From Pandoraea pneumonica (GTDB taxonomy: Bacteria > Pseudomonadota > Gammaproteobacteria > Burkholderiales > Burkholderiaceae): a stretch of DNA of 64,000 nt. Positions 32,488 to 51,725 of the stretch are shown here, piece after piece. The stretch spans positions 248,001 through 312,000 of the forward strand of contig NZ_CABPSK010000001.1 of assembly GCF_902459645.1 (NCBI RefSeq), given 5' to 3'. The notes under the pieces are model-generated. The model made no database searches, was not told the origin of the DNA, and saw only the letters and a program-made list of their open reading frames with translations. A program made the translations under genes and the position numbers. The stretch's first letter is position 1, and each line of letters begins with the position of its first letter.

Positions 32488-32771
32488 TGAAGCGCTCCCA
32501 GGACGACGTTTCTAGACACAGAAAAAATCCCCGTGGGTAGAACTTAAGCGGTTGGCGTACCAATTTCAATTGCCCGATTGAGCTGTTGTGTCCTTGTAAC
32601 AGATGTCTTGATGATCAAACGAATCGGGTGGACGAGAATCGACCCACATGGAAGTGCAGTCGGAGCGTGTGGGTTCGCCGTTCAACCGGAGTGCGGTACA
32701 TCGTAGTGCCAGCTTTTTGCCAGCATGCTGGCTGAGAGGGCCGAGTTACAAGGAATTTGCTGGGGTTCGAG
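32488..32771. other. Autotransporter upstream region and degenerate tRNA-like DNA
   Basis: No gene is visible. The left part is the promoter and leader region of the leftward autotransporter gene. Near 32,706-32,771 the sequence has tRNA-like scraps (GGCTGAGAGGGCC, then GGGGTTCGAGTCCCC at the start of the attachment repeat) but no complete tRNA can be folded. Confidence 0.5.
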
Positions 32772-32845
32772 TCCCCTTCCTCGCACCAACTCCCCGTTTT
32801 GGCATCGGTTTTGTAGGTTCTACTTCTTCCCTGAAATTCGCGCGA
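32772..32845. repeat. Left attachment repeat (attL), 74 bp
   Basis: Identical over 74 bp with 51652-51725. Its start, together with bases before it, reads as a tRNA T-arm and acceptor end (GGGGTTCGAGTCCCC, TTCCTCGCACCA). The remainder is AT-richer DNA of unknown role (GGCATCGGTTTTGTAGG). Confidence 0.9.
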
Positions 32846-32977: not shown

Positions 32978-33982
32978 ATGGCATCCATTCAGAAGGTGGT
33001 GAAGGGCTGGCGCGCCCAGTTGATGGTCAACGGCGAGCGCGACAGCAGGACGTTTGATACAAAGGCAGCCGCGCAGGCGTGGTGTGCGCAGCGGGAGACG
33101 GAAATGCGGTCTATTGCTAGCGGGAGTGGCAGTAAGACGCTAACAGTAGGTGACGTTCTCAAAGAGTACGAGCTGAAGGTGAGTCCCACGAAACGCGGGG
33201 CTAGATGGGAGAAGCTTCGATTGCCGCTGATTGGCAGCAAAGTGGTCAATGGACGGAAGTTCGCTGATATCAGGCTGGCGGAGCTTCGGCCTAGCCATGT
33301 GGCGGCTTGGCGAGATGTTCGGATGCGTGAGGTATCGGGATCGTCGACTTCACGCGAAATGTCGCTGATGTCGCACGCATTTCAGGTGGCTCGGAAGGAG
33401 TGGGGCTGGTTGGTGACAGACCCGATGACCGAAGTGAAGCGACCACCGGAGCCTCCCGGGCGGGAGCGGTTGATTTCCACGGAAGAGATCGAAACGCTGC
33501 TGGCGAGCATGGGATACGAGGAGGGACTGCCGGTCGAAAAGCCGATGCAGCGAGTCGCCGTTGCATTTCTCTTTGCGATAGAAACCGCCATGCGCTCGAG
33601 CGAGATATTGACGCTCACTGTGCAGTCAGTGAATTACAAAGGCAAGTTTGCGCGGCTTCCGATGACGAAGAACGGGACGGCCCGGAGCGTACCGTTGTCG
33701 TCGAGGGCTATCGATCTGCTGAGGATGCTGCCGAGCGTACCAAAGGGTGAACCGTTGTTTGCTCTATCGACGTCTAGCCGCGACGCACTGTTCCGGAAGG
33801 CGAGGGATCGTGCCGAGATCCCGGACGTGACGTTCCACGACACGCGCCACGAAGCCATCACCCGCCTAGCGAAGAAGTTGCAGCCTCTGGACCTCGCCAG
33901 AATGACGGGCCATAGGAACATCTCAGAACTAATGACTTACTACAACGCTACCGCAACAGAGATCGCAGGGCGACTCGGCTAA
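32978..33982 (+). CDS. int: Tyrosine-type site-specific integrase
   Basis: A 334-residue phage-type recombinase. The N-terminal arm-binding part starts MASIQKVVKGWRAQLMVNGERD, followed by a SAM-like core-binding domain (about 60-160). The catalytic domain has Arg in ETAMRSSEILTL (about residue 205), HDTRHEA (H-x-x-R, about 286-289), MTGHRN and the nucleophile Tyr in LMTYYNAT near the C-terminus. It catalyses recombination between attP and the tRNA-end attB, now visible as the 74-bp repeats. It reads inward from the left repeat. Confidence 0.95.
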   Translation: MASIQKVVKGWRAQLMVNGERDSRTFDTKAAAQAWCAQRETEMRSIASGSGSKTLTVGDVLKEYELKVSPTKRGARWEKLRLPLIGSKVVNGRKFADIRLAELRPSHVAAWRDVRMREVSGSSTSREMSLMSHAFQVARKEWGWLVTDPMTEVKRPPEPPGRERLISTEEIETLLASMGYEEGLPVEKPMQRVAVAFLFAIETAMRSSEILTLTVQSVNYKGKFARLPMTKNGTARSVPLSSRAIDLLRMLPSVPKGEPLFALSTSSRDALFRKARDRAEIPDVTFHDTRHEAITRLAKKLQPLDLARMTGHRNISELMTYYNATATEIAGRLG

Positions 33983-34225: not shown

Positions 34226-34483
34226 GTGATTTTTTTGCGATTTACGGAGGATGCCATTTTGGAAGACTCGGATGGTCGAGAGTCCTTGGGCATGGTTGGC
34301 GACATAATCGAGAATCTTCGGATTAGACCGCGCGGACGCCCCAAGGCTAGTTCCCCGAAAGAGCAGATCAATATTCGGCTTTCGCCTGAAGTTCTCGCTT
34401 ACTTTCGAGAATCAGGTGCTGGATGGCAGACACGAATAGATTTGGCGCTCAAGCAGTTTGTAGAAAGAAATAAACGAGCCTGA
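34226..34483 (+). CDS. BrnA-like antitoxin/DNA-binding protein without a visible toxin
   Basis: The C-terminal half contains RPRGRPKASSPKEQINIRLS followed by PEVLAYFRESGAGWQTRIDL, which matches the BrnA antitoxin family (ribbon-helix-helix type DNA binding). BrnA normally neutralises the RNase BrnT encoded upstream. The 243 bp before this gene do not encode a BrnT. The GTG start at 34226 is uncertain; ATG at 34292 would still keep the domain. It lies just before the methyltransferase gene and could regulate it. Confidence 0.65.
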   Translation: MIFLRFTEDAILEDSDGRESLGMVGDIIENLRIRPRGRPKASSPKEQINIRLSPEVLAYFRESGAGWQTRIDLALKQFVERNKRA

Positions 34484-34534
34484 CGGCAACCGATGGTCAG
34501 TTGTAGTTCCTTGGATTTTTGTTTGCTCAGAATT

Positions 34535-35665
34535 ATGCCCACTTATTACGAGTTCTTTGCTGGTGGCGGGATGGCTCGTGCAGGCCTAGGCGATGACTGG
34601 ACCTGTCTATTTGCCAACGATTTTTCCGAGCAGAAGGCAAGGTCATACAAGGCTAATTGGGGTGGTGAACACCTTGTTGTCGAAGATATTAATAAGCTGA
34701 CCGCGGATCAGTTGCCGGGTCAGGCCAATTTGGCATGGGCCTCTTTTCCTTGCCAAGATTTGTCGTTGGCGGGGAATGGTGCTGGTTTGAACGGCGATCG
34801 CTCGGGGACGTTCTGGGGCTTTTGGAATCTCATTCAAGAGTTGAATTGGCAGGGAAGAAAGCCGTCGGCCATTGTTCTCGAAAACGTTTATGGCGTTCTA
34901 ACATCGCATGATGGCAAGGATTTTGACGCAATCGCGAGATCCATCGCGGCTGAAGGCTATATCTTCGGCGCAATGGTTGTTGACGCAGTTCAGTTTGTTC
35001 CTCAATCGCGGCCGCGCGTATTTATCGTTTGCGTCGACGAGCGACTCACTGTACCTAATGAAGTCGTGTCCAAGCGTGCGCTGCCAAGCTGGTGTCCAGA
35101 GAAGCTGATTGGTGCCTACAACGCTTTGCCAAAGAAGGTTAGAAGTAAATGGCGTTGGTGGAAGATGGCCGAGCCGACGTCAGTATTGAAGACTTTAGAC
35201 GAAATAATCGATTCAGAACCGTCAGGGGTGAAATGGCATAGTCGTGAGGAGACCGACAAGATCCTCGGCATGATGGCACCGACGAATCTTCAGAAGGTCC
35301 TGACGGCACAACAGGCCGGTCGAATTCACGTTGGGACGATTTACAAGCGCACGCGCGGAGGTGTTCAACGTGCCGAAGTCCGGTTCGACGGGATTGCAGG
35401 TTGTCTCCGAACTCCCAGTGGTGGATCGAGTCGCCAGACAATTATGATCGTTGACGGTCCGCTCGTCCGCACTCGCTTGATTAGTGCTCGTGAAGCGGCA
35501 CGGTTAATGGGGCTGCCGGAAGAGTATGTGTTGCCTACTAAGTACAACGAAGCGTACCATCTGATTGGTGATGGGGTGGTTGTGCCGGTGGTAGCGCACA
35601 TTAGCGAAAATGTCCTGCTTCCAATCATGAGTGCGCAGCCACAGGTCCAACTGAACGTTGCCTAG
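34535..35665 (+). CDS. DNA (cytosine-5) methyltransferase
   Basis: The 376-residue enzyme begins with motif I (YEFFAGGGMARAGL), has the catalytic ASFPCQDLSLAGNG (Cys of PCQ, near residue 75), VLENVYGVL (motif VI, ENV), RVFIVCV (motif VIII) and the C-terminal AARLMGLPEEY with GDGVVVPVV (motifs IX-X). The variable region between about residues 190 and 290 would set the target sequence. It transfers methyl from SAM to C5 of cytosine. The next gene, 8 bp on, encodes a GIY-YIG protein, so it may be the modification half of a type II system. Confidence 0.92.
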   Translation: MPTYYEFFAGGGMARAGLGDDWTCLFANDFSEQKARSYKANWGGEHLVVEDINKLTADQLPGQANLAWASFPCQDLSLAGNGAGLNGDRSGTFWGFWNLIQELNWQGRKPSAIVLENVYGVLTSHDGKDFDAIARSIAAEGYIFGAMVVDAVQFVPQSRPRVFIVCVDERLTVPNEVVSKRALPSWCPEKLIGAYNALPKKVRSKWRWWKMAEPTSVLKTLDEIIDSEPSGVKWHSREETDKILGMMAPTNLQKVLTAQQAGRIHVGTIYKRTRGGVQRAEVRFDGIAGCLRTPSGGSSRQTIMIVDGPLVRTRLISAREAARLMGLPEEYVLPTKYNEAYHLIGDGVVVPVVAHISENVLLPIMSAQPQVQLNVA

Positions 35666-35673
35666 GGGCGTGA

Positions 35674-36405
35674 ATGCCAGATTTGCCAGAACAATTAGAA
35701 ATACTCGACCAACTTCCGATTCCTAACGATGCTACCTCTGATCTCCCGTTCGAAACGAGTGAGCTTCGGCGGCTGCTCGATTATTTTCTAACTCGCTCTG
35801 TTGTCAATCCGCTAACCGGGGCGGAAACGAAGATCGGAAACTTCCAGTGGGGTGTCTATTCTTTCTACGATTACGACGGTGAGCCGATCTACGTTGGTCA
35901 AACGAAAGAATCACTACGTGTGCGTATCCGTCGTCATTTGACGAATCAGCGTACGGACGCTGTCGCAATGAATGTTCTTGACCCGTTTGAAGTGCACAAA
36001 ATTGTTGTGTACCCTCTGCCAGCGTTGGAAGGGAAGGCCGCTTCAGACAGCAACGCGAAGCGATATCTTGATGCGCTGGAGCACATGATCTACTCTCGCG
36101 CAATTGAGGCATCGAGGTTCGGTGCAATTCTCAACGAGAAGGAACCTCCGCAACCGACAGTGGACGTCGAAATCCCCTCGTCTTACGAAGGCGTTATTGT
36201 TTCCGATGAGGTGAAGAAGATTCGCGAACATCCAGATGTTCGCGTGGCACGCAGGACACAGACAATTTCTAGACTGGCTCAAGTGATTAGCGAGCGGAAG
36301 GTGCAAAAGGGACTTAGGCGAGTATTGCTCGTGCAGGCGCAGCGACTGGAGTGGCTTGCCCGCCGAAGGCTTGAAAGTGCGACCGATGTTGGTGGCGAGG
36401 ATTGA
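35674..36405 (+). CDS. GIY-YIG-domain protein, candidate restriction endonuclease
   Basis: The 243-residue protein carries a complete-looking GIY-YIG core at about residues 54-160: WGVYSFYDYDGEPIYVGQT (GVY and YVG forms of the two motifs), Arg in RVRIRRHL, the metal-binding Glu in LDALEHMIY, and Asn in AILNEKE. Flanking helices include a long charged C-terminus. Its place 8 bp after a C5-methyltransferase gene suggests the restriction partner, as in Eco29kI-type systems. No second domain for target recognition can be named. Confidence 0.75.
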   Translation: MPDLPEQLEILDQLPIPNDATSDLPFETSELRRLLDYFLTRSVVNPLTGAETKIGNFQWGVYSFYDYDGEPIYVGQTKESLRVRIRRHLTNQRTDAVAMNVLDPFEVHKIVVYPLPALEGKAASDSNAKRYLDALEHMIYSRAIEASRFGAILNEKEPPQPTVDVEIPSSYEGVIVSDEVKKIREHPDVRVARRTQTISRLAQVISERKVQKGLRRVLLVQAQRLEWLARRRLESATDVGGED

Positions 36406-36456: not shown

Positions 36457-36864
36457 TCACTTGTCGGGAGTGAGAATCGGAGGCACCTTTTTGTTAGCAT
36501 CCCTTGCCTGCGCGCGGCGGATGTTTTGATGAGACTCTGTCCAACGAATGACCTCGATTGCTTTCCAAAGGGGTTGCCCCGTTGCATTGCGTTGGGGGCG
36601 GCTCTCATCTGCTTTTGCTTTCGATCTAGTGGATGGTAGCCGGATTGGGGCAGGAAAATCAGAAAGCGTAACGACTCGTTCAAGAACCACTGCCGGTGAG
36701 CGTTGCAAGTAAGTTCCGATTGCCTTAGCGTTCCACAGCTGGATCGAAAGCGGCAACGGGGCTGCGATACGCTCTGCAATTGCCTTCGCTAGCTGATCCA
36801 CGAGGTACAGTGCTTGCGCATCGGCGTCGTTCGGCGTTGAATCTAAATCTACTTTGTTCCCCAT
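36457..36864 (-). CDS. Excisionase/AlpA-like winged-helix protein of the inovirus module
   Basis: The 135-residue product has a MerR/AlpA-type helix-turn-helix in LWNAKAIGTYLQRSPAVV followed by LSDFPAPIRLP and a later PLWKAIEVIRWTE, the pattern in which small phage regulators recognise their recombination or promoter sites. N- and C-terminal tails are charged. It starts 1 bp after the replication initiator stop, so the two are coupled. It may help excision by the integrase or control replication. Confidence 0.65.
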   Translation of the reverse strand: MGNKVDLDSTPNDADAQALYLVDQLAKAIAERIAAPLPLSIQLWNAKAIGTYLQRSPAVVLERVVTLSDFPAPIRLPSTRSKAKADESRPQRNATGQPLWKAIEVIRWTESHQNIRRAQARDANKKVPPILTPDK

Positions 36865-36865
36865 T

Positions 36866-37645
36866 TCAATTCTCCCTAGTTGCCAACCAAAGGCACCCTA
36901 GCTCCTGATTCCAGAACACTTGGCAGTAGTCCAATGTTGCGCCAGCAAGCTTGGCCGACTCGAATGCGATCACGATCGCATCTAGCGGATCGTCGTTGAG
37001 AAGGTGCGTAATGGAGTAGAGCTCGGGGATTTCGACGCCACGGCTCGTCCAGTAGCGCTTCTCGTTGATGGCGTGCTCCGCGAAGTCTTTGGTGATGTAC
37101 TTGCTCAGGTAGGAGGCGAGTTTGTGGCGTAGACCCTTCTGCTTGAACGGGTTGCTTACTCGCACATAGCCGTTGTTGTTGCCAATGATCGAAATCCAGA
37201 TCGAGCGCAACGTTCTGTAGTTCTGTCGGCCCTTGACCGCGATGTGCAGATGCCATGCCCCGCGTTTCTGGCGCTCTGCAACTGCGACGTACTGAAACTC
37301 CATCACCTTCCCGAGCCGACGGCGCAGGGCGTCGAAATGACGCCTCAGTCGGTCTTTGTCTTGCATGTTCTCTCGGTAGGTCAGCGTGATCATCCGATCC
37401 GCCCCGATGGCCTTACAACGCAATCTGACTTGTTGTTTGGCCCGTTTGGCCGCCACCAATTGGTTATCTTCCGAGTTTTCCGATTCGCCACGTTTGGCTC
37501 GCGGCATCAGATGAAGGCCCTGAGCGCCCATGTAGCGGTCGAATCGGGTCGCTGTGACCTCCACTTGACCATCCCCGAAGTTGCGACCTCTGATGACCCA
37601 CTCACGGCGGAAGGGTGAATAGCCCTCTAAACTCTGTTCCTGCAT
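36866..37645 (-). CDS. Rolling-circle replication initiator (HUH endonuclease)
   Basis: The product (259 residues from ATG 37645, preceded by GGAGGTGGCT) has motif 1 MITLTYREN, the HUH motif GAWHLHIAV and a motif 3 tyrosine in KLASYLSKYITKDFAE. These residues nick one strand of the double-stranded replicative form and stay linked through Tyr. Length and layout match replication proteins of Gram-negative filamentous phages and their satellites. A structured non-coding stretch upstream (37646-37865) may contain the origin. Confidence 0.9.
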   Translation of the reverse strand: MQEQSLEGYSPFRREWVIRGRNFGDGQVEVTATRFDRYMGAQGLHLMPRAKRGESENSEDNQLVAAKRAKQQVRLRCKAIGADRMITLTYRENMQDKDRLRRHFDALRRRLGKVMEFQYVAVAERQKRGAWHLHIAVKGRQNYRTLRSIWISIIGNNNGYVRVSNPFKQKGLRHKLASYLSKYITKDFAEHAINEKRYWTSRGVEIPELYSITHLLNDDPLDAIVIAFESAKLAGATLDYCQVFWNQELGCLWLATREN

Positions 37646-37684
37646 AGCCACCTCCGGTTATGTATGAGAGCGTAGTCCTTGCCT

Positions 37685-37713
37685 CGACGGGTAACCCCGT
37701 CGGGGCTTTTTTT
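37685..37713 (+). terminator. Hairpin with T-run upstream of the replication gene
   Basis: CGACGGG (37685-37691), TAAC loop, CCCGTCG (37696-37702), then GGGCTTTTTTT on the plus strand. As a terminator it would block rightward transcription. In the single-stranded phage genome it may also be part of the origin or complementary-strand start. Confidence 0.5.
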
Positions 37714-37811
37714 CTACCGTCGATCAAAGTGTTCCTGTCCTGGCAAAGCGGGGGGCGGTTTGGTACCTGTTTCCTTGATCGCGTACGTTAAGTGTTATTG
37801 ATATAAATATA

Positions 37812-37860
37812 GGGGCGCGCTTCGCGCGCCCCGCCGTCCTCGGCCCTCCGGGCGGCGGGG
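37812..37860. other. Two overlapping GC-rich hairpins after the secretin gene
   Basis: GGGGCGCGC / GCGCGCCCC (37812-37820 and 37824-37832, TTC loop) and CCCCGCCG / CGGCGGGG (37829-37836 and 37853-37860). They share bases 37829-37832, so only one can form at a time. On the minus strand the first ends with an AT-rich tract, so it may terminate the assembly operon. A packaging hairpin or origin is another possibility. Confidence 0.5.
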
Positions 37861-37865
37861 CGTGC

Positions 37866-39488
37866 TCATCGCGCTTCCTCCAAAACGTCTACACCCCAGG
37901 CACTTGCACGCGGCAGCGCGGCACCACGGCCCGACTGTTCGGCAGTGAGTGCAGGTGCGCGGGCCGCCACGCCTTCGATCACCGTTGGCGGTGAGACCCG
38001 CTGCTCGGTCGGCGGGGTGGCCTTGTCGGCCGGAACCCGCAGTGGCACTGGCTTGCTGTTGCGCTTCAAGCAGGTATCTGGCGCGCCGACACTCCCGACG
38101 CTAGACGCCCCTACGCGCTCAACCTGGAGCACCAGAAGAATTTCGGTACTCGACGCGGTATCGGAGTGCGCATCTAGAAAGCGAGGCAGGAACGAGATGC
38201 CAGCGGTGTTGTCGGTCGACTTGTTGGTCGTCAGCCCACCCAATAGGATCACCTCCCCGTTCTGGAGGGTGATTTCGGTACTCACTTCGCGCGTATTGAG
38301 CGTTGGGGACGCGTTGACACCTGTTGTGGTCTTCACGAAATCGCTGATCTGCTGTGAGACGTGCAGATCGATTACCGATTCCTTAACCATCGGCCGCAGC
38401 TCGAAAATGACGCCTGAAGAGTGATACTCGACGGACTGGACCGGCTCGCCACCTCCCCGTGGATAGGAGACTGATTTCAGCACGGGGACCTTCTGCCCGA
38501 CGGTAAGCCGTCCGCGGGCGCCTGATCGAATCCGCAGATTAGGGCTGTTGATCACGTGAAAGCGGGCGTCTTTCGACAGGGCCGAGAAAATCGTGTCGAC
38601 GTTGCTAGTTTTGATGCGCAGCGTGTTCCCGACCACATCGCCAGCAATCGAGACGCTTAGTCCGAGACCTTTCGACAGTAGATCAAGCGCCAACTGGAAG
38701 GCCGATCCGCGCTCGTTGCTGCGTGAGACCTCGTACGCCGTGGCGCGTACCGACACTTCACCTATCGGCGTATCCACCTGAGGCAACAGTTCACACAAAG
38801 CGATGATTTCCTCGCGAGTGCCTTGGAACAACAGCGTATCGCCTTGGGCGTCGATCAGTGCCGCTGCGGATCCCTCGGGTGCATTCTCCTTGGCCCTGTT
38901 GGCTGCGGGCATCGATACTGCCCGGTTCACGGTGAAATGCCCTTGGAAGAGTGGACGGACTAGGCCTGCGAGATATGCGGTATCGCGGAAGAGAGGGCGG
39001 TAAACGATCGTCTCTTTGGTCGAGTTGGATGCCAACCCATTCGGATCTAGCTTGAACACGAAATCCACTCCTCGGCGGCGCTCGATGCCGAACCCGAGTG
39101 ATTCGAGGAGCGTAGTCAGGAATGCTCGAAGATCGCCGGGTTTGCCCTCGTAACGTAGCGACACCAGACGATCATCTTGAAGAACGTCTGGGGCAATGAC
39201 ATAAGGCGTTTTGATCGCTTCACCATAAAGCAAGGACACGAGCTGCGCGACATTGACGAACTGGAAATCGAACTTGCCAGGCTGGAAGGGCAATGCGTTG
39301 GTTCGTGTGGATGACTGGTTTTTTTGCCGCGACGAAGTTGGGGGGCTAGGAATATCACGGGACTCGGGCGGGCCGTCGTCGTGCAGTGCCGGTCCAACGT
39401 AATCGATGGGGGCAGGGACGATGTAGGGCTCGTTTGCAAATGCTAACGACGAGAGCAGCAGGGTTGCGGTGGGCATGAGCAGCTTCAT
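37866..39488 (-). CDS. Filamentous-phage secretin (pIV type)
   Basis: A 540-residue outer-membrane channel. A signal peptide (MKLLMPTATLLLSSLAFA) precedes an N1/STN-like domain (FQFVNVAQLVSLLYGEAI) and the secretin domain from about residue 300: RSGARGRLTVGQKVPVLKSV, a VSTEITLQNGEVILLGGLTT motif, and a final LLVLQVERV. After it comes a Pro/Thr-rich tail of about 70 residues. It lets virions leave through the outer membrane without lysis. The start at 39488 overlaps the Zot stop. Confidence 0.92.
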   Translation of the reverse strand: MKLLMPTATLLLSSLAFANEPYIVPAPIDYVGPALHDDGPPESRDIPSPPTSSRQKNQSSTRTNALPFQPGKFDFQFVNVAQLVSLLYGEAIKTPYVIAPDVLQDDRLVSLRYEGKPGDLRAFLTTLLESLGFGIERRRGVDFVFKLDPNGLASNSTKETIVYRPLFRDTAYLAGLVRPLFQGHFTVNRAVSMPAANRAKENAPEGSAAALIDAQGDTLLFQGTREEIIALCELLPQVDTPIGEVSVRATAYEVSRSNERGSAFQLALDLLSKGLGLSVSIAGDVVGNTLRIKTSNVDTIFSALSKDARFHVINSPNLRIRSGARGRLTVGQKVPVLKSVSYPRGGGEPVQSVEYHSSGVIFELRPMVKESVIDLHVSQQISDFVKTTTGVNASPTLNTREVSTEITLQNGEVILLGGLTTNKSTDNTAGISFLPRFLDAHSDTASSTEILLVLQVERVGASSVGSVGAPDTCLKRNSKPVPLRVPADKATPPTEQRVSPPTVIEGVAARAPALTAEQSGRGAALPRASAWGVDVLEEAR

Positions 39489-40546
39489 TTCCAGCCCCCA
39501 TTTTTCCCGGACGTAGGCTTCTGGCCTGACCAAGTTGTGACGCGCTGCCCGTCTATCTCACCGATGCTCGCAATCCCATTGTTGCGGAAAGCAGATGGTG
39601 ATTCGACTCGTAATCGACCCGCTGAATCGCTGACCACGACATAGCGTTTTCCGTCGATCAAATACTGCCCGGCGACTCGCCAATCTGAGCTAAATGCTTG
39701 TCGAGGTGACTGAGCAGCGGTAGCGTGCTCGGGCTTCTTCGTTGACGACCCTGGACGAGTCGCTACCGTCGGGGGCGATTTCTTCGGCGTATGGGGATGG
39801 AAGTACCGCCATAGGAAGGTGCCGACTGTAATCCAACAAACAATGAAACCTGCTGCTGTGAGCCAAAGCTTCGGGCTCTTCAACAGGTTTTGCCGAGTGT
39901 CGATGGCCCGCTCATGCCCCTTCTGCCCGGCGTAAGACTGGTACAGCGGGAAGACGGCTTTGTCGTACGTGGTCGTTGACGTCCCGAGGCGTGCGGATTT
40001 GATGGTCTTGCCGCCGCCAAACATCTCGATCCGATACCGATTGCGTAGCCCTAGCTCCTTGAGCTTCTTGGTGACGAACGTCACTTCGATGACGGAGCGC
40101 AGCTGCCGATGTAGATCCGTAATCGACTGGATCATCAACACAACGTCGCAGGCCAAGCCGCTTTCAGCATGTACGTAGTGACGGTGCATTCGAAAGAAAC
40201 GCATGTGTTCCGGTTTGATCTTGTGAGACGTCGACCAGAATTCCCATGCCTCATCGATTGCCACCAGATCGCCTGCCTTCACCACTGAGTCGACGTCTGG
40301 TCGAGTTTCGTCGGGGAAGAAGTGCTCAGCGAGCACGTCGGCGTTCGCGACCGGGAGTATGGCTCCAAGTGCGTCCCGATCGGCGTTTCTGATGCTGACG
40401 CAGTAGTCATGAATGGCATCAGGAGAGATGCCGTCGATATTGGTCACCACACGCCGTCCTGCGAGAACGGCGGGCACGATGACGTTGCTCACAACCTCGT
40501 AGCTTTTACCCGAGCCCATTAGCCCTGTGTACGCGTTGATGGCCAT
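39485..40546 (-). CDS. zot: Zot-family assembly ATPase (pI)
   Basis: The 353-residue protein has Walker A GLMGSGKS (residues 8-15), Walker B VAIDEAWEFW (about 94-103), one transmembrane segment (about 228-248, WLTAAGFIVCWITVGTFLW) and a periplasmic C-terminal domain. The ATPase in the cytoplasm drives the phage out while the periplasmic part docks with the secretin. The order pVI, Zot, secretin fits the family. Confidence 0.95.
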   Translation of the reverse strand: MAINAYTGLMGSGKSYEVVSNVIVPAVLAGRRVVTNIDGISPDAIHDYCVSIRNADRDALGAILPVANADVLAEHFFPDETRPDVDSVVKAGDLVAIDEAWEFWSTSHKIKPEHMRFFRMHRHYVHAESGLACDVVLMIQSITDLHRQLRSVIEVTFVTKKLKELGLRNRYRIEMFGGGKTIKSARLGTSTTTYDKAVFPLYQSYAGQKGHERAIDTRQNLLKSPKLWLTAAGFIVCWITVGTFLWRYFHPHTPKKSPPTVATRPGSSTKKPEHATAAQSPRQAFSSDWRVAGQYLIDGKRYVVVSDSAGRLRVESPSAFRNNGIASIGEIDGQRVTTWSGQKPTSGKNGGWK

Positions 40547-40549
40547 GAA

Positions 40550-40849
40550 TTACCCGATTACCGGCAAGCGGCGAATAATGAATCGAGTCGCGATAGCGCT
40601 GAGGATCATCGGCATTCCTTCAGACACGGCAAACAGTTCTAGCCAGAACCAGACACCGTCAGGGATCTTGGCGAATGCGTCGTCAAGCGATTTGGCTTCG
40701 GGGAAAAGGCGTGCCGACAACAGAAACTCGACGAATTCGGTGGTGATGAACCAGAGCGCGAAGAACGTTCCGAACTTCACCAATAGCGAGCGCAGCACAA
40801 AGCCGAGTGCGACGTTCAGTACGCTCGTTAGGATGGAAAAGAGCGGCAT
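40550..40849 (-). CDS. Minor coat protein, pVI-like (DUF2523 type)
   Basis: The 99-residue product is hydrophobic with three probable membrane spans (about 5-20, 24-44 and 68-90) and sits between the pIII-like gene and zot, as DUF2523 proteins do. pVI caps the trailing end of the virion with pIII. It is 3 bp from the Zot start and 7 bp from its upstream neighbour. Confidence 0.8.
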   Translation of the reverse strand: MPLFSILTSVLNVALGFVLRSLLVKFGTFFALWFITTEFVEFLLSARLFPEAKSLDDAFAKIPDGVWFWLELFAVSEGMPMILSAIATRFIIRRLPVIG

Positions 40850-40856
40850 GATGACC

Positions 40857-42425
40857 TCAAGCAGAGAGAATGATCAGAGTCGCGAGCGCAGCAAATGCGG
40901 CGAGCATGGCAAGGCGAAGTTCCGGGCCAATGGCGTTCGCGATGTCGCAATAAGCTTCGACGGCAATCACGCTGCCAAAGACTTGCAGTTGTGCGCGCGG
41001 ACACGCCCCGCCATGAGACGGTGCAGACCATTTCTTGAAGTCATCTAACAGGCCCAAAACGGGCTCAAGAATCATCTTGGCTGTGGGTGCTGACTCCAGC
41101 ACGGGTGCCGCTACATCGGGTGCCGCACCCAGATCCACTTCAGCTTTTACCGTGTTACCGATGTCGACGATTGGTCGGTTGACGACGTTGACGTCTTGGA
41201 CCTCGCTTGGATCCAGCTTTGGCTGGGCGATTGGATCCGTCTCCGCATCCGGCTTCTTGTTAGGTCTTATCGATGATGAAATAGGGACGGCTTTTTGTTC
41301 GGGAAGCGTGGCAGGTTCCATCACATCGCCGATTTGCGGCGTTGACTTTGGATTCTCTCGAATCCACGGCATCACCTCTGGCGCCGTGACTGGCTCAGTT
41401 ACGGAGTAGGGGAGCCCTTGGTAATCGACAGATGATGCGGCCCGCTGCCACACTTGATCGACTATCTCGGCAAGCGTTTCGGCACTGAGGGGAATGGTTG
41501 AGGCTTCGTCGGCAATTTCGAAAATGGCGCTATCGAGGTTGGGATGCGAGGAAAACGTAGTGGTCCGTCGAGTTCGCTCAAATGCTTCGCGAGTGAGAAC
41601 GTATTTGGATTCCAGAGGGACGGTTATCCAACTATAGGGAGTGCAACTTGGAGAGCCGGGACAGTTCATGTAATCGTGCCCCCAGTACCGGACGCCGAAC
41701 TCTTTGAATTCGCCATCAGGACCGAACATCTCAACAATTGTTGGATTTGGGTCCGAGCCATCGTTGTTTCGCAACAGCACGCCAACGAGTTGCACAAACG
41801 CATGCATGGATGTTGCGACCACTTCGTAGCCGTGCCACCAGTTCTGCTGGCTCATTCCGGATGAGACGGAAGGTGGACTCGGCAGCGAGGAGCAAATGTA
41901 CTCCCTATCCCCTACCGGGCAGTTGGGTAACTGGTAGGCGAGATACCCCCGCTCAAGTAGATCGTCGAGCCACTCATCCTCACCGGGAGTCAGGTTCACG
42001 TGAAAATTCTCAGACAACACGGGAGGAGGGCCTTGGGGACGGCTCGTTGATATCGTTAGCGTTCCGGCTTCGGTTGCCGTAATCGAGACCTCGGTGTCTC
42101 CCAAACGAGCTAGTAGCGCATTACCCGCCCCAAAGATGCCCAAACCGGCCAATATGGTCAGCCAGACGGGCGCACCCATGAGCGATAGTCCAAACCCGGC
42201 TCCGGTGGAAACGACGTTGAGTGCGGTGCTGTTCGATGAAATGGTCTCCAAGGTCGCAGCGATTCTCGGATCGTTAGCAGCAAAGCCTCTCTCCCTGGCA
42301 ACACGCGTTATAAGTCCAGCGATGGCGCGATTCATTGCTAGCTTTGCGACGGGAAGTGCTTGTGGCATTGCGGGCTGCTGTGCGAGCAATGCGAGGAGAA
42401 GCGCAGTCATGACCGATCGTTTCAT
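40857..42425 (-). CDS. Adsorption protein, pIII/TspB-like
   Basis: The 522-residue protein has a signal peptide (MKRSVMTALLLALLAQQPAMPQA), a large N-terminal body, a Pro-rich middle (about 330-420) and a C-terminal anchor (LRLAMLAAFAALATLIILS) behind a Cys-containing section (CPRAQLQVFGSVIAVEAYC). This arrangement is that of pIII and the TspB-type virulence protein family. It binds the host receptor at the virion tip. I use ATG 42425, 2 bp after the small gene stop; the longer frame lacks coding character. Confidence 0.85.
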   Translation of the reverse strand: MKRSVMTALLLALLAQQPAMPQALPVAKLAMNRAIAGLITRVARERGFAANDPRIAATLETISSNSTALNVVSTGAGFGLSLMGAPVWLTILAGLGIFGAGNALLARLGDTEVSITATEAGTLTISTSRPQGPPPVLSENFHVNLTPGEDEWLDDLLERGYLAYQLPNCPVGDREYICSSLPSPPSVSSGMSQQNWWHGYEVVATSMHAFVQLVGVLLRNNDGSDPNPTIVEMFGPDGEFKEFGVRYWGHDYMNCPGSPSCTPYSWITVPLESKYVLTREAFERTRRTTTFSSHPNLDSAIFEIADEASTIPLSAETLAEIVDQVWQRAASSVDYQGLPYSVTEPVTAPEVMPWIRENPKSTPQIGDVMEPATLPEQKAVPISSSIRPNKKPDAETDPIAQPKLDPSEVQDVNVVNRPIVDIGNTVKAEVDLGAAPDVAAPVLESAPTAKMILEPVLGLLDDFKKWSAPSHGGACPRAQLQVFGSVIAVEAYCDIANAIGPELRLAMLAAFAALATLIILSA

Positions 42426-42427
42426 CG

Positions 42428-42514
42428 TTATCCTCGGAAGCCTTGAATTACCGCCCAGGCGCAAACCATTCCCCACACGAAGAAGGTCAAATTCCAGAGA
42501 TCTTGGATTGGCAT
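42428..42514 (-). CDS. 28-residue minor coat candidate (pVII/pIX-like)
   Basis: ATG 42514 to TAA gives MPIQDLWNLTFFVWGMVCAW plus VIQGFRG after one Ala: a single hydrophobic helix with an acidic start and basic end. A strong ribosome site (GGGGAG) precedes it, and it ends 2 bp before the pIII-like start. Inovirus pVII and pIX are 30-residue single-span proteins encoded between coat and pIII, so this is a good match in size and place. Confidence 0.7.
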   Translation of the reverse strand: MPIQDLWNLTFFVWGMVCAWAVIQGFRG

Positions 42515-42604
42515 GTCGGCTCCCCTGGAGATGGCTAAGCGCTTGTTGGTGACCACGAGCCGAGCGCACAAAGCATGGGTTCGTGCGCTCGGCAAAACGG
42601 GGGA

Positions 42605-42838
42605 TTAACCTCCCTTCAGGACGGAAAGCACGATCTTGGCCCCGCGTAATGTGGCGTACACGGTCGCTAACGTGATGCCGATGGCAAGAATCGCCCCGAT
42701 GGTGGAATCCAAGCTGACACTCTTCGCCATCTCCGTCACGTCACTCTCTGCACGCGCAAGGAACGGCGCAGTGCCCAGTGCGACACCGCACGCAGCGTGT
42801 TTTCCCGCGCAGAAGATTCGTTGCAGGGTTACTTTCAT
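42605..42838 (-). CDS. Major coat protein (pVIII)
   Basis: The 77-residue precursor has a signal peptide ending in FLARA (cleavage after residue 30), leaving a mature 47-residue helix: acidic start ESDVTEMAKS, hydrophobic span IGAILAIGITLATVYA, basic end RGAKIVLSVLKGG. Thousands of copies wrap the ssDNA, with the basic end facing it. ATG 42838 is chosen because upstream in-frame sequence has no signal-peptide logic. Ribosome site GGAGGAAA. Confidence 0.92.
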   Translation of the reverse strand: MKVTLQRIFCAGKHAACGVALGTAPFLARAESDVTEMAKSVSLDSTIGAILAIGITLATVYATLRGAKIVLSVLKGG

Positions 42839-42885
42839 GGGTATTTCCTCCAGTTGATACGCCGGGGAGCGCCCGACACGCTTGG

Positions 42886-43194
42886 TCAACCACGGCGGAT
42901 GAAGCCGACGATTGCGCCAACCTGGGCACTCACGAACCAGAGTCCGATCACGGTTGCGAATGCCAATGTCCAGAAACCCGCCATCTGTGGGATGTCGAGC
43001 TGTGGGGATGTCATTGACGTCTGAGAGGGGGGAATGCTCACCACGGCAAACTGCTGATCGCCTTCGGGCGGGCACAGTTGGGTGTCAATCGCCGTGGTGG
43101 GAGTGCTCAAGTTCGTTGGCTGGCAAATGAGGATGCGGTGGGGTAGGGCGCTCACCGTGAAACCCCATACCGAATGCTGTGCAGAAGCTGCCAT
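42886..43194 (-). CDS. Small membrane protein of the inovirus operon
   Basis: The 102-residue product has a polar, Pro/Thr-rich N-terminal part and a single C-terminal transmembrane segment (FWTLAFATVIGLWFVSAQVG) followed by FIRRG. It may be another minor coat or assembly protein. ATG 43194 overlaps the upstream gene by 43 bp; an internal ATG at MTSPQLDIPQ or MAGFW would remove the overlap. Confidence 0.65.
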   Translation of the reverse strand: MAASAQHSVWGFTVSALPHRILICQPTNLSTPTTAIDTQLCPPEGDQQFAVVSIPPSQTSMTSPQLDIPQMAGFWTLAFATVIGLWFVSAQVGAIVGFIRRG

Positions 43195-43421
43195 GCAAAT
43201 CTCGAACTCGATGGCTGCGGGACGTCTTGAGCATCACAAATCAGGTCGAGAACGCCGGCCAGCGCTTCTACTGTTTCGTAAAGCAACGGGGCCGATTCGA
43301 TGGTGCGGGAGAAGCGCGCAACGTCGTCCGAGAACAGGCCCCGTACCTGCGCAATGCAAACACATGTCTCGCCGGGAACGATGAACGTGTGCTCGATGAC
43401 TCCAGAGGGCGGCGCGGTCAT
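43152..43421 (-). CDS. Hypothetical inovirus protein
   Basis: From ATG 43421 the product has 89 residues, with VIEHTFIVPGETCVCIAQVR and a helix SAPLLYETVEALAGVLDLIC. A GTG ten codons earlier is an alternative start. No family is recognised. It lies between the ssDNA-binding protein and the small membrane protein genes on the same strand and overlaps the latter. Confidence 0.55.
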   Translation of the reverse strand: MTAPPSGVIEHTFIVPGETCVCIAQVRGLFSDDVARFSRTIESAPLLYETVEALAGVLDLICDAQDVPQPSSSRFAWQLLHSIRYGVSR

Positions 43422-43681
43422 GCTGTCACCGTTGACATAGTCAGTCCGCACGGCAGGAGTTCATCTACCTGTAAATGTGAGGCCGGGGTAGCGCTGGAAC
43501 TGGTGCGTGATTGAACTCGGGCGGGACAGAAGTCACCGAGTAGCAGAGAAGATCTTTGGTGAAGCATCGCAACCCCCAGTTACTCCAAGGCGAGTGAGCC
43601 AGACGGAGTGAAAAAGTGGCGGGGGGCCGGATTTGACGACAGAGCGTCGCCCGTAGATAAGCGACGAGACGTTGGGGATGA

Positions 43682-43990
43682 TTACTTAGCGGGCTTGGTA
43701 GGGTCGCCCGCTCGGGCGCTGGGTGCGTAGGGTTGCAACGCTACAATGCGAGGGACAAGCTGGCCGTCAATCGACTGCGCAAAGGCGAACTCCGCGAGGT
43801 AGTCGCCTGGCTCGGTGTCTTTGAGCGCTTCAGGAAGCGTGACCGTGCCGACAACGGTCTTCACGCCTTCGCTCGTCGTTTGCGTGAGTGCGCATTGTGC
43901 GGTGCGCATGTCGTAGGGACGGCCGGTCTTCATGGAAATGCCTTGGCGTTGAAGGATGTCGAGAATTCTGAGCTTTGGTGTGGCGATCAT
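43682..43990 (-). CDS. Single-stranded DNA-binding protein, pV-like
   Basis: The 102-residue protein has MIATPKLRILDI, SMKTGRPYDMRTAQCALT, VGTVTLPEALKDTEPGDYLAEF and LVPRIVALQPY: the OB-fold pattern of filamentous phage helix-destabilising proteins. It covers newly made phage ssDNA and keeps it from becoming double-stranded before assembly. It is the first gene of the leftward operon, transcribed away from the repressor-like gene, with a double operator between them. Confidence 0.8.
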   Translation of the reverse strand: MIATPKLRILDILQRQGISMKTGRPYDMRTAQCALTQTTSEGVKTVVGTVTLPEALKDTEPGDYLAEFAFAQSIDGQLVPRIVALQPYAPSARAGDPTKPAK

Positions 43991-44040
43991 GGGTTGTCCC
44001 GTTGTGAGAGAACGGAAGCCGGTGAATCCAAGCTACCGAC

Positions 44041-44072
44041 GCCTAAGGAATAGGCATGCCTAAATTGTAGGC
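44041..44072. promoter_or_regulatory. Tandem operator: two copies of GCCTA-N5-TAGGC
   Basis: The sites are 44041-44055 (spacer AGGAA) and 44058-44072 (spacer AATTG), separated by AT; together they also create the palindrome TAGGCATGCCTA. They lie in the 117-bp gap between the divergent pV-like and repressor-like genes, exactly where a phage switch operator is expected. Confidence 0.75.
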
Positions 44073-44107
44073 CTGCATGTCGAGAATGAATTTGGGGACT
44101 TTCCGAA

Positions 44108-44386
44108 ATGCGCGAACGTGTCTGCGAACTCATTGAGCATGTCGCTGACGCGGATCGATGCTGGCGGGAAATGGAGGAGTTCACGGGCATCCCGTCCAAG
44201 CGATGGCAGAACGTCTCACGCGGTCTGCAACGCCCGACCTCTGAAATGATCGAAGCGATTGGCCGCGTATGGCCTCAGTTTGCGTACTGGTTGGTGACGG
44301 GACGCACAGATGAGGCAAGCGGCCACATCTCACCCACCCTGGAGCGCAGGGCTCGGGACTTAAACAAAATCCGGAAGGCTGGGTAG
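44108..44386 (+). CDS. Repressor-like HTH regulator of the inovirus module
   Basis: A 92-residue protein with a helix-turn-helix in the first 50 residues (MEEFTGIPSKRWQNVSRGLQ then RPTSEMIEAIGRVWPQFAYW). It resembles small DNA-binding proteins found next to inovirus replication and ssDNA-binding genes. Divergent orientation to the pV-like gene and the double operator between them suggest it controls lysogeny. It probably binds 44041-44072. Confidence 0.7.
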   Translation: MRERVCELIEHVADADRCWREMEEFTGIPSKRWQNVSRGLQRPTSEMIEAIGRVWPQFAYWLVTGRTDEASGHISPTLERRARDLNKIRKAG

Positions 44387-44408
44387 TCGCCGCCAAGGCA
44401 AATGCGCG

Positions 44409-44639
44409 TTGGTGGCAGCGGCGTTAGGTCGCGATAGCGTTTGTTGTTTCTGCTCGATCCCGCCGTTTGGCTTCGAAAGGGCGGGCAGCGCCTACTACGT
44501 AGATGTTGACGTTGAGTCAGACGCGTACGTTCTATGCGGTGGTTTCGCGAAGAGCGAGGCGATCAACATACGAACGACTCTCAGCAAAAAATTTTTCAAA
44601 AAGGCGGAAGTGGCATCGGGGGGCCAGTCAGGGCAGTGA
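44409..44639 (+). CDS. Possible small protein of unknown function
   Basis: An open frame of about 76 codons begins with TTG 44409 or GTG 44412, 22 bp after the regulator. The product has CCFCSIPPFGFE, a strand-rich middle (YYVDVDVESDAYVLC) and a basic C-terminus. No strong ribosome site or family match is visible, so it may not be real. Confidence 0.35.
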   Translation: MVAAALGRDSVCCFCSIPPFGFERAGSAYYVDVDVESDAYVLCGGFAKSEAINIRTTLSKKFFKKAEVASGGQSGQ

Positions 44640-44642
44640 TGT

Positions 44643-44888
44643 TTACGCGACCAGTGCGTCTGGTTGGATCAGATAATTTAGATCTTCATCGAGGCGTCGG
44701 CACAAGTGATGTACCTCGCTCGAAATGTCGGTCATTTGATCGAAGTACGCCTCGTTGAACTGCTCGGGGATCGATGTTGAACGTTGGTTCGCACCAATCA
44801 TAGAAAGCGCGACCAATCTTTCTGACAGCTCGCTCAGTCTATCGAGCGTGTCTCTTGAGGGAATGGACAGGGAGCAATGTGAAGTCAT
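44643..44888 (-). CDS. Small helical protein, unknown
   Basis: From ATG 44888 (ribosome site GAGGAAC) the 81-residue product is acidic and almost wholly helical, with heptad-like Leu spacing in TLDRLSELSERLVALSM and HHLCRRLDEDLNYLIQ. It could form a coiled coil. It ends 3 bp from the end of the preceding plus-strand frame. Family unknown. Confidence 0.5.
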   Translation of the reverse strand: MTSHCSLSIPSRDTLDRLSELSERLVALSMIGANQRSTSIPEQFNEAYFDQMTDISSEVHHLCRRLDEDLNYLIQPDALVA

Positions 44889-45382
44889 GCGAAGTTCCTC
44901 GTGCTTTACCAGGTTAATCCCGCCGCGGATTGCAGATGAGGGTGGGCGGGCATAGGACCGGGTTAGCAGACCGTAATGGATATGGTTTAACGGCACACCC
45001 GAAGGTGTCCCAATCCAAGCCCACCCATTGATGGATGCACGAAGGACGCCGCACACAAAGACCGCAGTGAAGTGCGGCCGTGTGCCCATAAATCCATTTT
45101 CAGGCTGCTAAACCTGATCACGCTTGGGGCGTGAAGATGGAAGTCTATGAGCATCCAAAGCGTGCGGCAAGGTCGTGCGTCAACAACTCTACTGTAAGGC
45201 TTTGAATTCGGAAGTTTCACACAAATATCTTGGGAAATTCCTATGTTTCGAAGGCTGGGTGCCAACTGTACTGGGCTTTTTGCCGGGAGGTATATAAGTA
45301 ATTTGCCAAGACGCGCGTCGTGGCGAATATTTTCGCCGCGACGCTAAACTGACAAAAAATATTTTAATTTACGTGCGCGACA
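44889..45382. other. Non-coding stretch with a strong hairpin
   Basis: No convincing gene is present. AT content rises towards the right. A 13-bp stem-loop (GCGTCGTGGCGAA / TTCGCCGCGACGC, 45315-45344, one G-T pair) lies 39 bp beyond the Z1 gene stop and may end the leftward Z1 transcript. Confidence 0.55.
45315..45344 (-). terminator. Hairpin downstream of the Z1 gene
   Basis: A 13-bp stem with a TATT loop. There is no T-run on the far side, so it is not a classical intrinsic terminator; mRNA 3'-end protection is the likely role. Confidence 0.45.
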
Positions 45383-47518
45383 TTATTCGGCCGTTTTGCC
45401 AGCGAAGACGCACGGTTCAACGTTCCCCGGGGCAACTAAAATCGGCCACCAAAATTTTTGTCCCATCCACCCTAATTCCTTGCTCCCTTCTTGTTGGAGC
45501 AGAATTAGTGCAGGTTGGCTTCTCGATTTTTCGGAGGCCAATTCGCGTAGTTTGGTCCCGAGTATGGAGCGGCCAGACTTATCGCCCGATTTTTCACGAT
45601 CTAGTCTTCTACCGGTTTCGGCAAGTATCAGGAGGTCTTCTGTATTTGAGTTTCTAGCGGTCAAGTAGTACTCAATAAGACTGTGCATAGCATCCCAGTC
45701 AAACTGGATGTCACCGAACTTCATGGTATCTGCGGTGATGTCAATGATTTTTTGCGCCCGATGCTTGTCGATTGGATGAAAAGTGTCGGTATCACGCCAA
45801 GAGGAATCAATGAGTTTGTCAAGTTCGTCTTGAGAGGATTTCATGCCTTTCCCGGTGGCCGTTTGGAAGCCTGTCGGAAGCAAAAGGCCGTTTGGCTTTA
45901 TGGTGACAACGTTACTTAGAACTATTTTGTTGGGGGCGCATGGTCGGACTCGTCGTTCTCTGTCTGCTTGGATGAAAACAATCCCCTTGTCATGAGCGCC
46001 AGTTTCAAAGGCTTCCCGTAATGCGTTCTCGAATCCGTTGATCGTTGATAGCCGATCATAGACGTCGTTAGAAGTATAAAATCTCGTTACCGCAATGTCG
46101 GGGCGGGCTCGATTGCCATACATCCGAGAGTGCTGTAGCACCGTGTCAGCTTGCATGGTCTTTGGATTTCTCCCGTAGTAGAAAGAAATAAGATTCGGAA
46201 TTGTAATCCCGCGATCTAGAATATTACCGCCGACATAGATGTTAAATGGTGTTCTAAGTTTCAACTCCGCTTTATCGTCAAGAAGCGCCATGACATCTTT
46301 GTCAGAGTTGACCGTTTCACGCACGACATCGTCACTCTGAAGTGCATCGATAAACATATTGAACGCCGCTTCGCGGTCGGGCATTCTCCCCTTGTCTGCG
46401 TGAACCGACGAGGACAAATCTTCATACGCTGCATCGAAGAGTGGGCGTAGGTTCGTCGGCGATGATTCCGCCGAAGAGAGAATTGCTTCAAATATCCAGT
46501 CAATAACCTGATCCTGCCAAGCGTGAGCGGCCTTTTGAGTATCATTGTGGATAATCATCGCGTACTTCCGCTTTTTTTCCCCCGCCTGCTGCTGCTGCCA
46601 GCGACGAACGCAAACGGCTAATACAAAAGTTATGATTGCCCGTCGAAGTCCGGTGGTATTGGGACTAACCAATGCCGAAGTGGCGCGAATCTTTCTTTGA
46701 TCTGGTTTTCGGAGTGCGTCCAATTCTTGTACTTGAACTCGTACTATTAAATAGTACCGAGGATCATTTTTGTCGTATCCACCGAAGTAGTCATCTCCAC
46801 CAACGTATCCTCCGTGAATGGGGAGTAGTTCAGTGAATGCCGGCTTTTTCGGCTTGAATACATAGCCTGTTGAGGCCGTATCTTCGTAGTCTTCGGGCTG
46901 TAGATATAGTGAGTAGGGGGTGGCGGTCACTTGCAGAAATGCCACCTTAGTCATCATCTCACGCAACTGATCTATCTGTTCGGCTATTGTTCCTTGCTCC
47001 ACATCATCTTGCCCTTTCTTCCGCACAAATCTTACGCTCGCTAGATCGGCCTCGTCGTCAATTAACAGAACGCGTCGTTCTTTCAAGGTGGAGTGACTGT
47101 CTATAAAATCTATCAGCCTCGACAGATTTTGCGCCTGCTTTTTTGCAACTATAACTATTTTTCGGCTGAGTTCACTTCGCGTTAGCTTTCCAGGCAGTTT
47201 CATGATGTCCAGAACAATTAATTCATCCTCCTCGATGAATTCAGTCAGGTCGTGACTAAGCCTGGCGACGGTCTGTGCCGAGAGCGTCTTTGTGCCTTTT
47301 GTTAATACTATTGCAATATCAAAATTTCTATCAAATGCTCTCGCAATGGCTCCAACAAAACCTCTGGTTTTTCCTGATTGAATCTTCCCTAACAGCATTC
47401 CAGGCCGATCGCTTGTGGTCGATGCCTCCTCAAGTTGATTGACAACGCGCTCAATGCATGCTGCCAATTCGTCGTCATCGCCTCTTTGATTTCGAAGTCT
47501 TGCATAGAATGAGTTCAT
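45383..47518 (-). CDS. Z1-domain helicase-like ATPase, candidate defence protein
   Basis: The 711-residue protein has an SF2-like P-loop GKIQSGKTRGFVGAIARAF (about residues 44-62), IVLTKGTKTLSAQT, a Walker B VLLIDDEADLAS (about 150-161) and VTATPYSLYLQ. The Z1 domain follows with YVGGNILDRGITIPNLISFY and ADTVLQHSRMYGNR at about residues 425-470. Z1 proteins (Iyer, Abhiman and Aravind) are helicase-like members of bacterial restriction-like loci with MORC or REase-fold partners. Here the partner on the same strand is a UvrD-type helicase 198 bp upstream. AT-rich compared with the phage and chromosome. Confidence 0.85.
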   Translation of the reverse strand: MNSFYARLRNQRGDDDELAACIERVVNQLEEASTTSDRPGMLLGKIQSGKTRGFVGAIARAFDRNFDIAIVLTKGTKTLSAQTVARLSHDLTEFIEEDELIVLDIMKLPGKLTRSELSRKIVIVAKKQAQNLSRLIDFIDSHSTLKERRVLLIDDEADLASVRFVRKKGQDDVEQGTIAEQIDQLREMMTKVAFLQVTATPYSLYLQPEDYEDTASTGYVFKPKKPAFTELLPIHGGYVGGDDYFGGYDKNDPRYYLIVRVQVQELDALRKPDQRKIRATSALVSPNTTGLRRAIITFVLAVCVRRWQQQQAGEKKRKYAMIIHNDTQKAAHAWQDQVIDWIFEAILSSAESSPTNLRPLFDAAYEDLSSSVHADKGRMPDREAAFNMFIDALQSDDVVRETVNSDKDVMALLDDKAELKLRTPFNIYVGGNILDRGITIPNLISFYYGRNPKTMQADTVLQHSRMYGNRARPDIAVTRFYTSNDVYDRLSTINGFENALREAFETGAHDKGIVFIQADRERRVRPCAPNKIVLSNVVTIKPNGLLLPTGFQTATGKGMKSSQDELDKLIDSSWRDTDTFHPIDKHRAQKIIDITADTMKFGDIQFDWDAMHSLIEYYLTARNSNTEDLLILAETGRRLDREKSGDKSGRSILGTKLRELASEKSRSQPALILLQQEGSKELGWMGQKFWWPILVAPGNVEPCVFAGKTAE

Positions 47519-47716
47519 TTTAATCTCGGTAGTACCTTGTGTGGATATTGCTGTCTACTTTTTGTGCGGAAAAACTAGGATTTCTGGGTGCGTAAGTTTA
47601 TTAAATTTTTAATTGGTTTTTTGCTTATTTTGTTTCGTGTTGGTGAAGGTGATATTTATAAATTTTATTTGTGAATAATTCCGGGGATTGCTGTTCATGT
47701 CTGTAAATGATGAAAG
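47519..47716. other. AT-rich spacer between the UvrD-like and Z1 genes
   Basis: About 200 bp with long A/T runs and no gene. It could contain a separate promoter for the Z1 gene. I see no clear terminator for the UvrD-like gene in it. Confidence 0.5.
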
Positions 47717-50700
47717 TTACGTGGCATCGTATGCGTTCGGCTTAATTTCAAATTGCCGCTCAAAAAATTTTGCGATTTGACCTGCTGCTCCCTGACCGCC
47801 GAGGATCATCGCGTGACTGGCTTGAACCTCGGCGAAGGTGACGCTGTCCGTTCCTGCTGCTTCATATGGAACAGAAGTTTTAGAAATACTTACGCGACGC
47901 CCGCATTCATCTAGGCCAGCTTTTGTCAGAACCATCGCATTAGGATTGGTGCGCAATTGACGAATATGATTTCGTTTAAGCCATTCTGAGAGCTCGTGTC
48001 GTGGGATTAGGAATCCGAGTATCGAATATGCCATCGGCCTACCTACCTCAAGCAGATCTATTCCGTTGACGTTCTGAGCTACAAGAAGCGAAGCAAGTGT
48101 GTGCGCACTGAGCTCCCGTTGCGAGAATTTAAGTACTTCACTATGTCGATGGAGTCTCAACTGACCAACGGGTATTGCCTCATTGCCGTGCGCGTTACCG
48201 AAATCGAGTACGCGAGGCGCTCGAGCAACTTCGATTACTGCTCGCGAGGAACTAACGTGGCTGTTGTCTCCCGTGTTGTTCTGGATCAAGGACGCAAGTC
48301 GTGTATTGAGTTCGGCCCAGGCGGCATTTCCCATAATCCCGTTGCGAGTAATGGGGTTTTCCATTGCGAGATAAAAGGTTTGAAATTCCCGCCACTCTGT
48401 CTGCTTTCGGCGGCCGCTTGCGGACCGCGCCTCCGTTCTAACTTGTCCTGTCACGTGTTGGAGGATCTCGTCTTGAACGATTTGACTCAACCCAACAGCT
48501 TCTCGCATGCGCAGAAAATCGCGACCGTTAACCGTCCAACTGTCAATGTTGCCAGTCTGGCGTAAGGTAGCCGGGGGCCAGAGGATGCCGGCAAGGTCAG
48601 CGGGATGCGCCACGTGCTCTTCCCAGGTGGCGACGTTGAAGAGTTCAACCGCGGCGTCCACAAATCGAGAGGCACTGCCGTGGAAACTGACCACTAGCTC
48701 TGTCTTTGCACGCGTTAATGCCACATATAGTTTGAAGAGTTCACGAAACGACTCGTGTTCAGGCAAATCAGGGTGTGGGATCACTTGTCGACTGCAGTTC
48801 AGCACAATCATCAGATCAAATTCGAAGCCCTTCGTTTGCTCAAGGTCTGATAGGAAGAGTGACTTTGCCGATAGGTCTGTGTCGCCGGAGAGAGCAGGCA
48901 GACCTAAATTAGCCGCAAGGTGCTCCACTGCAGCGTGTGAGTAGCCACACAGTGCAATGCAGACCTTGTGATGGGGAGCGCTCCTAATATTCTCTAACGC
49001 ATAGGAGTAAGCCATTGCGAGTTCATCAAAGACTGATGTGGCTCGCAAAAGTAGCGGCTTTGCGGATGTAAAGTTCGCGTACTCTGGTTGGAGGATTTCG
49101 AAGTCGACCGTCCCGCGGGGTATCGAATTGAAGGTGCGAGTTAGGACCTCGTACGCTGCCGCAAGAATTTGTCGACTATTCCGGTAGTTTTGATTTAACC
49201 GAATCCATCGCGCGGGTGGAACATCGATTTCCGCGTCCTTTAGGTTGAGATGTTTCGTGTGAACGGTTTGGGCAGCATCTCCACACAGGAAAAGATCGTT
49301 TGTCCCTGGTCGGGTTAGGCGCCGAATAATTCGTAATTCAAGGGTCCCAAGGTCTTGGACTTCGTCGACCAAAACGTGGTCGAACTCGTGTGAAAGGGTG
49401 TTAACGTGCGAGTACAGCGCGGTGACTATTCCTACATCGTCAATTGCACCAACTGCCGCCATTTTTCGTTCCGATCCCGCGAGTCCAGATAGCACCATTT
49501 CGCGATATCGTCGCTCCAGCGCCACAACCCGGCCGTCTCGTTGCATGTCGAGGTAGGTGGCTCGCTCTTCCGGTGCAAACGCGCTGCGTACATAGTCCAA
49601 TTCCTGCCTCAAATAGTCTTGAGGTAAGACGTTGCGCGCGAGCAATGTTCGAATTACATCGAACAGGACTTCCGCATCGTGATTGTTTGCCTGGCAGTGA
49701 AAATACTCATCCCAGATATCGTCAATATGCTCCGCGGCGGCAAAGGCGTTGCGTTGCACAATACGTTTGCCGTAATAGTCGAGTTTGGCTGGTTCAAGTG
49801 CGATGAGCTTCTCTCGACACAACTCGAATACTGACCTCACCGTAAGGTTCTCGGGGCGTAGGGAACCACTTTCAGCATTAACTAGCTCACTGATTAGCTT
49901 CGCAAGCGCTTCGTTTAGTGTTAGAACGAGGACTTTTTTATCCGGTGCGCTGCGCGCCAACCGTAACGCACGATGAATGACAACGCATGTCTTTCCGGAG
50001 CCCGACACTCCGGCCAGACGAGTCGCTCCAACGTAGTCGTTGTCAATAAATTCTCGCTGTTGCGGATGAAGATAGAGCATCCATTGCTTGAAATCCGCCG
50101 TCTTGATGAAATGTTCGAATAGGATTGGATCAATATCCTGGACACGCACGGTCATCTCGCTTGACGCAATTCGACTGGCATCGTCTGCGGTCAAAGTACC
50201 GACCGGTTTCACTTGGTCGGTATAGAGGTCGACGCGAGACTTAGCCCCTTGCAGATCGCTGGACCGTAGCTTCAGCAGCACATCAAGGACTGTGTAAGCT
50301 AGCTCTGAGTCCGAGATGCCTTCCACAATCTCCTGTACCAAGTCTTCTGAAGTGTGTGACATAACATCACTGATTCGAGATTTTGTACTCGGATCCACAT
50401 CTTGGAGAAGACGCTCCAAATATCGATCGGGCAACTGTTCGATGACTGGTCCGGTGCTCATCCAATCTACTTCGGATTGAATCAGGCCATCTTTTCCTTC
50501 AGCTCGATTCGATACGTAAACAGGTGTAATTTCGAGCCGAGTTCCTTGCTCTCTTGCGACAAAGTCCAGGCCCTTGTTGACGTTTAGCCAGCGGTCCACA
50601 GCGTCATGATCACCTGCAAATAGAAAAATGCAGACGTTGCTGCTGTAGGCGGTCACTAGCCGAGAAAAACCGGGAAGGTCAAACTTTCGGCAAAATGCGA

Positions 50701-50899
50701 TGCGATTTTCACCGTTGTTGGTTAGGGGAAGCCCAGTGAAAACACCTTCGAAAGTGGTTTCTCCGGCGTTGGCTTTCCCCCAAGCCTGATAAGCTTTCTC
50801 TGCGGCCTTTTGATAGAGTCCCCCTTTGCGGAACAAAGTGCCCAGTGAGTCTGGAAACTCGGGACCTTGGATAAACTCGATCTTATTTTTCGCTTTCAT
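47717..50899 (-). CDS. UvrD/Rep-type helicase with extra N- and C-terminal regions, candidate defence protein
   Basis: A 1060-residue protein from ATG 50899. Residues about 1-110 (RIAFCRKFDLPGFSRLVTAY, CIFLFAGDHDAVDRWLNVNKG) have the alternation of a RelE/ParE-like fold. The SF1 helicase has Walker A GVSGSGKT (about 297-304), DHVLVDEVQDLGTLEL (motif II), FLCGDAAQTVH (III), IRLNQNYRNSRQ (IV), TKGFEFDLMIVL (V) and LYVALTRAKTELVVS (VI), all intact. The C-terminal 300 residues are unassigned. It probably translocates on ssDNA and works with the Z1 protein. It carries no nuclease motif that I can see. Confidence 0.85.
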   Translation of the reverse strand: MKAKNKIEFIQGPEFPDSLGTLFRKGGLYQKAAEKAYQAWGKANAGETTFEGVFTGLPLTNNGENRIAFCRKFDLPGFSRLVTAYSSNVCIFLFAGDHDAVDRWLNVNKGLDFVAREQGTRLEITPVYVSNRAEGKDGLIQSEVDWMSTGPVIEQLPDRYLERLLQDVDPSTKSRISDVMSHTSEDLVQEIVEGISDSELAYTVLDVLLKLRSSDLQGAKSRVDLYTDQVKPVGTLTADDASRIASSEMTVRVQDIDPILFEHFIKTADFKQWMLYLHPQQREFIDNDYVGATRLAGVSGSGKTCVVIHRALRLARSAPDKKVLVLTLNEALAKLISELVNAESGSLRPENLTVRSVFELCREKLIALEPAKLDYYGKRIVQRNAFAAAEHIDDIWDEYFHCQANNHDAEVLFDVIRTLLARNVLPQDYLRQELDYVRSAFAPEERATYLDMQRDGRVVALERRYREMVLSGLAGSERKMAAVGAIDDVGIVTALYSHVNTLSHEFDHVLVDEVQDLGTLELRIIRRLTRPGTNDLFLCGDAAQTVHTKHLNLKDAEIDVPPARWIRLNQNYRNSRQILAAAYEVLTRTFNSIPRGTVDFEILQPEYANFTSAKPLLLRATSVFDELAMAYSYALENIRSAPHHKVCIALCGYSHAAVEHLAANLGLPALSGDTDLSAKSLFLSDLEQTKGFEFDLMIVLNCSRQVIPHPDLPEHESFRELFKLYVALTRAKTELVVSFHGSASRFVDAAVELFNVATWEEHVAHPADLAGILWPPATLRQTGNIDSWTVNGRDFLRMREAVGLSQIVQDEILQHVTGQVRTEARSASGRRKQTEWREFQTFYLAMENPITRNGIMGNAAWAELNTRLASLIQNNTGDNSHVSSSRAVIEVARAPRVLDFGNAHGNEAIPVGQLRLHRHSEVLKFSQRELSAHTLASLLVAQNVNGIDLLEVGRPMAYSILGFLIPRHELSEWLKRNHIRQLRTNPNAMVLTKAGLDECGRRVSISKTSVPYEAAGTDSVTFAEVQASHAMILGGQGAAGQIAKFFERQFEIKPNAYDAT

Positions 50900-51651: not shown

Positions 51652-51725
51652 TCCCCTTCCTCGCACCAACTCCCCGTTTTGGCATCGGTTTTGTAGGTTC
51701 TACTTCTTCCCTGAAATTCGCGCGA
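51652..51725. repeat. Right attachment repeat (attR), 74 bp
   Basis: Identical over 74 bp to 32772-32845. Sequence just outside (GGCTTGCC...) differs from that outside the left copy, as expected for a true att core. Confidence 0.9.

Follow-up and report, generated by a model that had tools for sequence, protein, structure and literature searches.

A filamentous-phage element with probable restriction genes at its two ends

The window, the whole 64,000-nucleotide stretch of Pandoraea pneumonica DNA analysed here, contains a filamentous-phage (inovirus) element bounded by a perfect 74 bp direct repeat (32772..32845 on the left, 51652..51725 on the right). Between the inovirus part and the right repeat lie two genes on the minus strand (45383..47518 and 47717..50899), which an earlier note, rightly placing them at the right end of a mobile element, had taken for a candidate two-gene defence locus. 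Both genes and their common strand are real and the note's reading holds in part, but the two do not form a self-contained pair.

The first gene of the pair (45383..47518) encodes a superfamily 2 (SF2) helicase with the C-terminal motif DThhQXuRhFG, here DTVLQHSRMYG, and appears to drive a DNA restriction system as its motor; the corresponding methylase and the likely nuclease would sit at the opposite end of the element. There, on the plus strand, we found a C5-cytosine DNA methyltransferase gene (34535..35665; the open reading frame, ORF, opens at 34493 and the likely ATG is at 34535) and the gene of a GIY-YIG protein, the proposed restriction nuclease (35674..36405; Pfam GIY-YIG, 1e-6). The catalytic set of this predicted nuclease (GIY, YIG, Arg, Glu and Asn) is all present, G60, Y62, Y73, G75, R84, R87, H88, E136 and N154 do not vary when the window protein is aligned with four relatives, and the counterpart in locus L002 is 58% identical. 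In relatives, Vsr accompanies the SF2 helicase and the C5 methylase. Just upstream of the methyltransferase lies a BrnA-like ribbon-helix-helix (RHH) antitoxin or regulator gene (34226..34483, plus strand; Pfam BrnA_antitoxin, 2e-17), which is perhaps the controller gene of the restriction-modification (R-M) system; an RHH gene likewise precedes the methyltransferase in L058. No BrnT toxin gene was noticed beside it, no search having been aimed at BrnT. The MzaC equivalog of the MZA system scored 88.7 bits, below its cut-off of 1500, and neither a GHKL ATPase nor an RE-fold protein nor an AIPR was seen among the element ORFs scanned (the Pfam negatives cover 15 ORFs that lie entirely within the element).

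The RelE-UvrD helicase

The second gene (47717..50899, minus strand) encodes an ArmD-like protein whose UvrD core (aa 279-750) is recognised by Pfam, in agreement with the superfamily 1 helicase of the earlier note. That note had also proposed a check of the protein's ends: by alignment with 21 relatives, in which R81, H99 and W105 are invariant, the N-terminus (about aa 1-115) is a RelE-type domain, whereas the C-terminus (from about aa 866, the last 195 or so residues; 47717-48307) showed no relatives in the searches made. At E-values up to 1 the N-terminal domain is HigB-like in 6/22 members and ParE_like in 2/22, matches that are below the Pfam cut-off where shown; the window protein alone gives neither, and in one member there is an additional match to CREG (5e-4). 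Relatives of this domain also stand alone, free of any helicase (L159:9924-10655, 40% identity; L160:9366-10496, 35%). Tailed-phage genomes hold RelE-UvrD genes amid structural or lysis genes (L258:7953-10259 and L004:8049-10319), and in the latter a neighbour is labelled SduA by the depositors.

Known or candidate defence genes are adjacent to RelE-UvrD genes, or within about 8 kb, in 14/22 other loci: YprA/DruE-like genes in seven (adjacent), a type III methylase in five (up to about 7 kb off), and BrxL and TmtA in one each (both adjacent). The UvrD gene encodes a toxin-fused helicase in its own right, with relatives found beside a variety of defence systems. The same frequent company could be read in favour of a four-gene set, in which UvrD works with the other three genes in restriction. 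The four genes have similar GC content at third codon positions and would share one cargo zone once the element is circular, and in ARMADA type II deletion of any gene abolishes defence (PMC12458937). We consider such a set unlikely and retain the separate helicase.

Inovirus core, integration and cargo

The inovirus part (36457..45089, minus strand; Pfam and PHROGs) has small ORFs without assigned function at both ends and an inovirus prophage set recognised by profile: a rolling-circle replication initiator (36866-37651), a secretin/pIV (37866-39533), a Zot/pI-like assembly ATPase (39485-40546) and small virion proteins, namely a minor head protein (40550-40849) and a virion protein (42605-43075), with a 570-aa protein (40857-42569) between these two. 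Six inovirus ORFs keep an identical order in four relatives from the genus.

The tyrosine integrase (32978..33982, plus strand; Pfam Phage_integrase 1e-21, PHROG integrase 1e-53) has homologues of at least 86% identity, adjoined by a similar attachment repeat in 8/9 relatives. The first 17 nt of the left repeat belong to a tRNA-Leu 3′ end, and the 3′ end of an intact tRNA-Leu elsewhere in the genome shares 27 nt with the surroundings of the repeat start. The repeat with this partial end (32758-32845), the intact tRNA-Leu some 110 kb further upstream in the contig (C1:170591) and a lambda-type prophage to the left of the element suggest that one tRNA gene has been the target of tandem integrations.

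Relatives of this inovirus (L225, L247, L255 and L257) differ in the defence-type genes that they carry next to the core (HerA-SIR2, AbiEii, methylase-Vsr, PDC-M55 candidates). Ten hand-picked cargo proteins were run through PADLOC, which identified HerA, SIR2 and AbiEii in L225 (an IMG/VR contig whose integrase is not the same), AbiEii in G014, and in G015 a type II methylase and Vsr along with two PDC-M55 candidates; G012 gave a weak match and the cargo picked from G024 none. Because several relatives bear different cargo of this kind, the lineage appears to act as a shuttle for defence genes. The Pf KKP module is an earlier example of a filamentous prophage that provides defence (PMC11341870).

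Comparison with known systems

The element shares a UvrD-type helicase with Gabija, and PADLOC matches it to GajB (7e-18). GajB is not known to carry a RelE-type domain at its N-terminus, and no GajA (ATPase-TOPRIM) family was found by Pfam in the 15 element ORFs, in line with the mismatch with Gabija pointed out in the earlier note. The helicase shares with ArmD of ARMADA type II a UvrD/GajB-like core and an N-terminal RelE-like domain, and differs from it in having a C-terminus without known relatives (PMC12458937). ArmA, ArmB and ArmC were not seen: in the element ORFs scanned, Pfam detected no further helicase family and no N6-methylase, and no ORF of the element exceeds UvrD in length.

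The element possesses the C5-cytosine methyltransferase of CglI/NgoAVII-type R-M systems, but their nuclease combines PLD and B3 domains where the proposed nuclease of the element is GIY-YIG, the genes of the element are split over two prophage ends, and it has an extra RHH gene and UvrD (PMC4267653). Neither PLD nor B3 was found by Pfam in the 15 ORFs, whereas the same scan recovered both in the gonococcal R protein. Eco29kI is a GIY-YIG type II R-M system, and such systems resemble the element in pairing a C5 methylase with a GIY-YIG nuclease.
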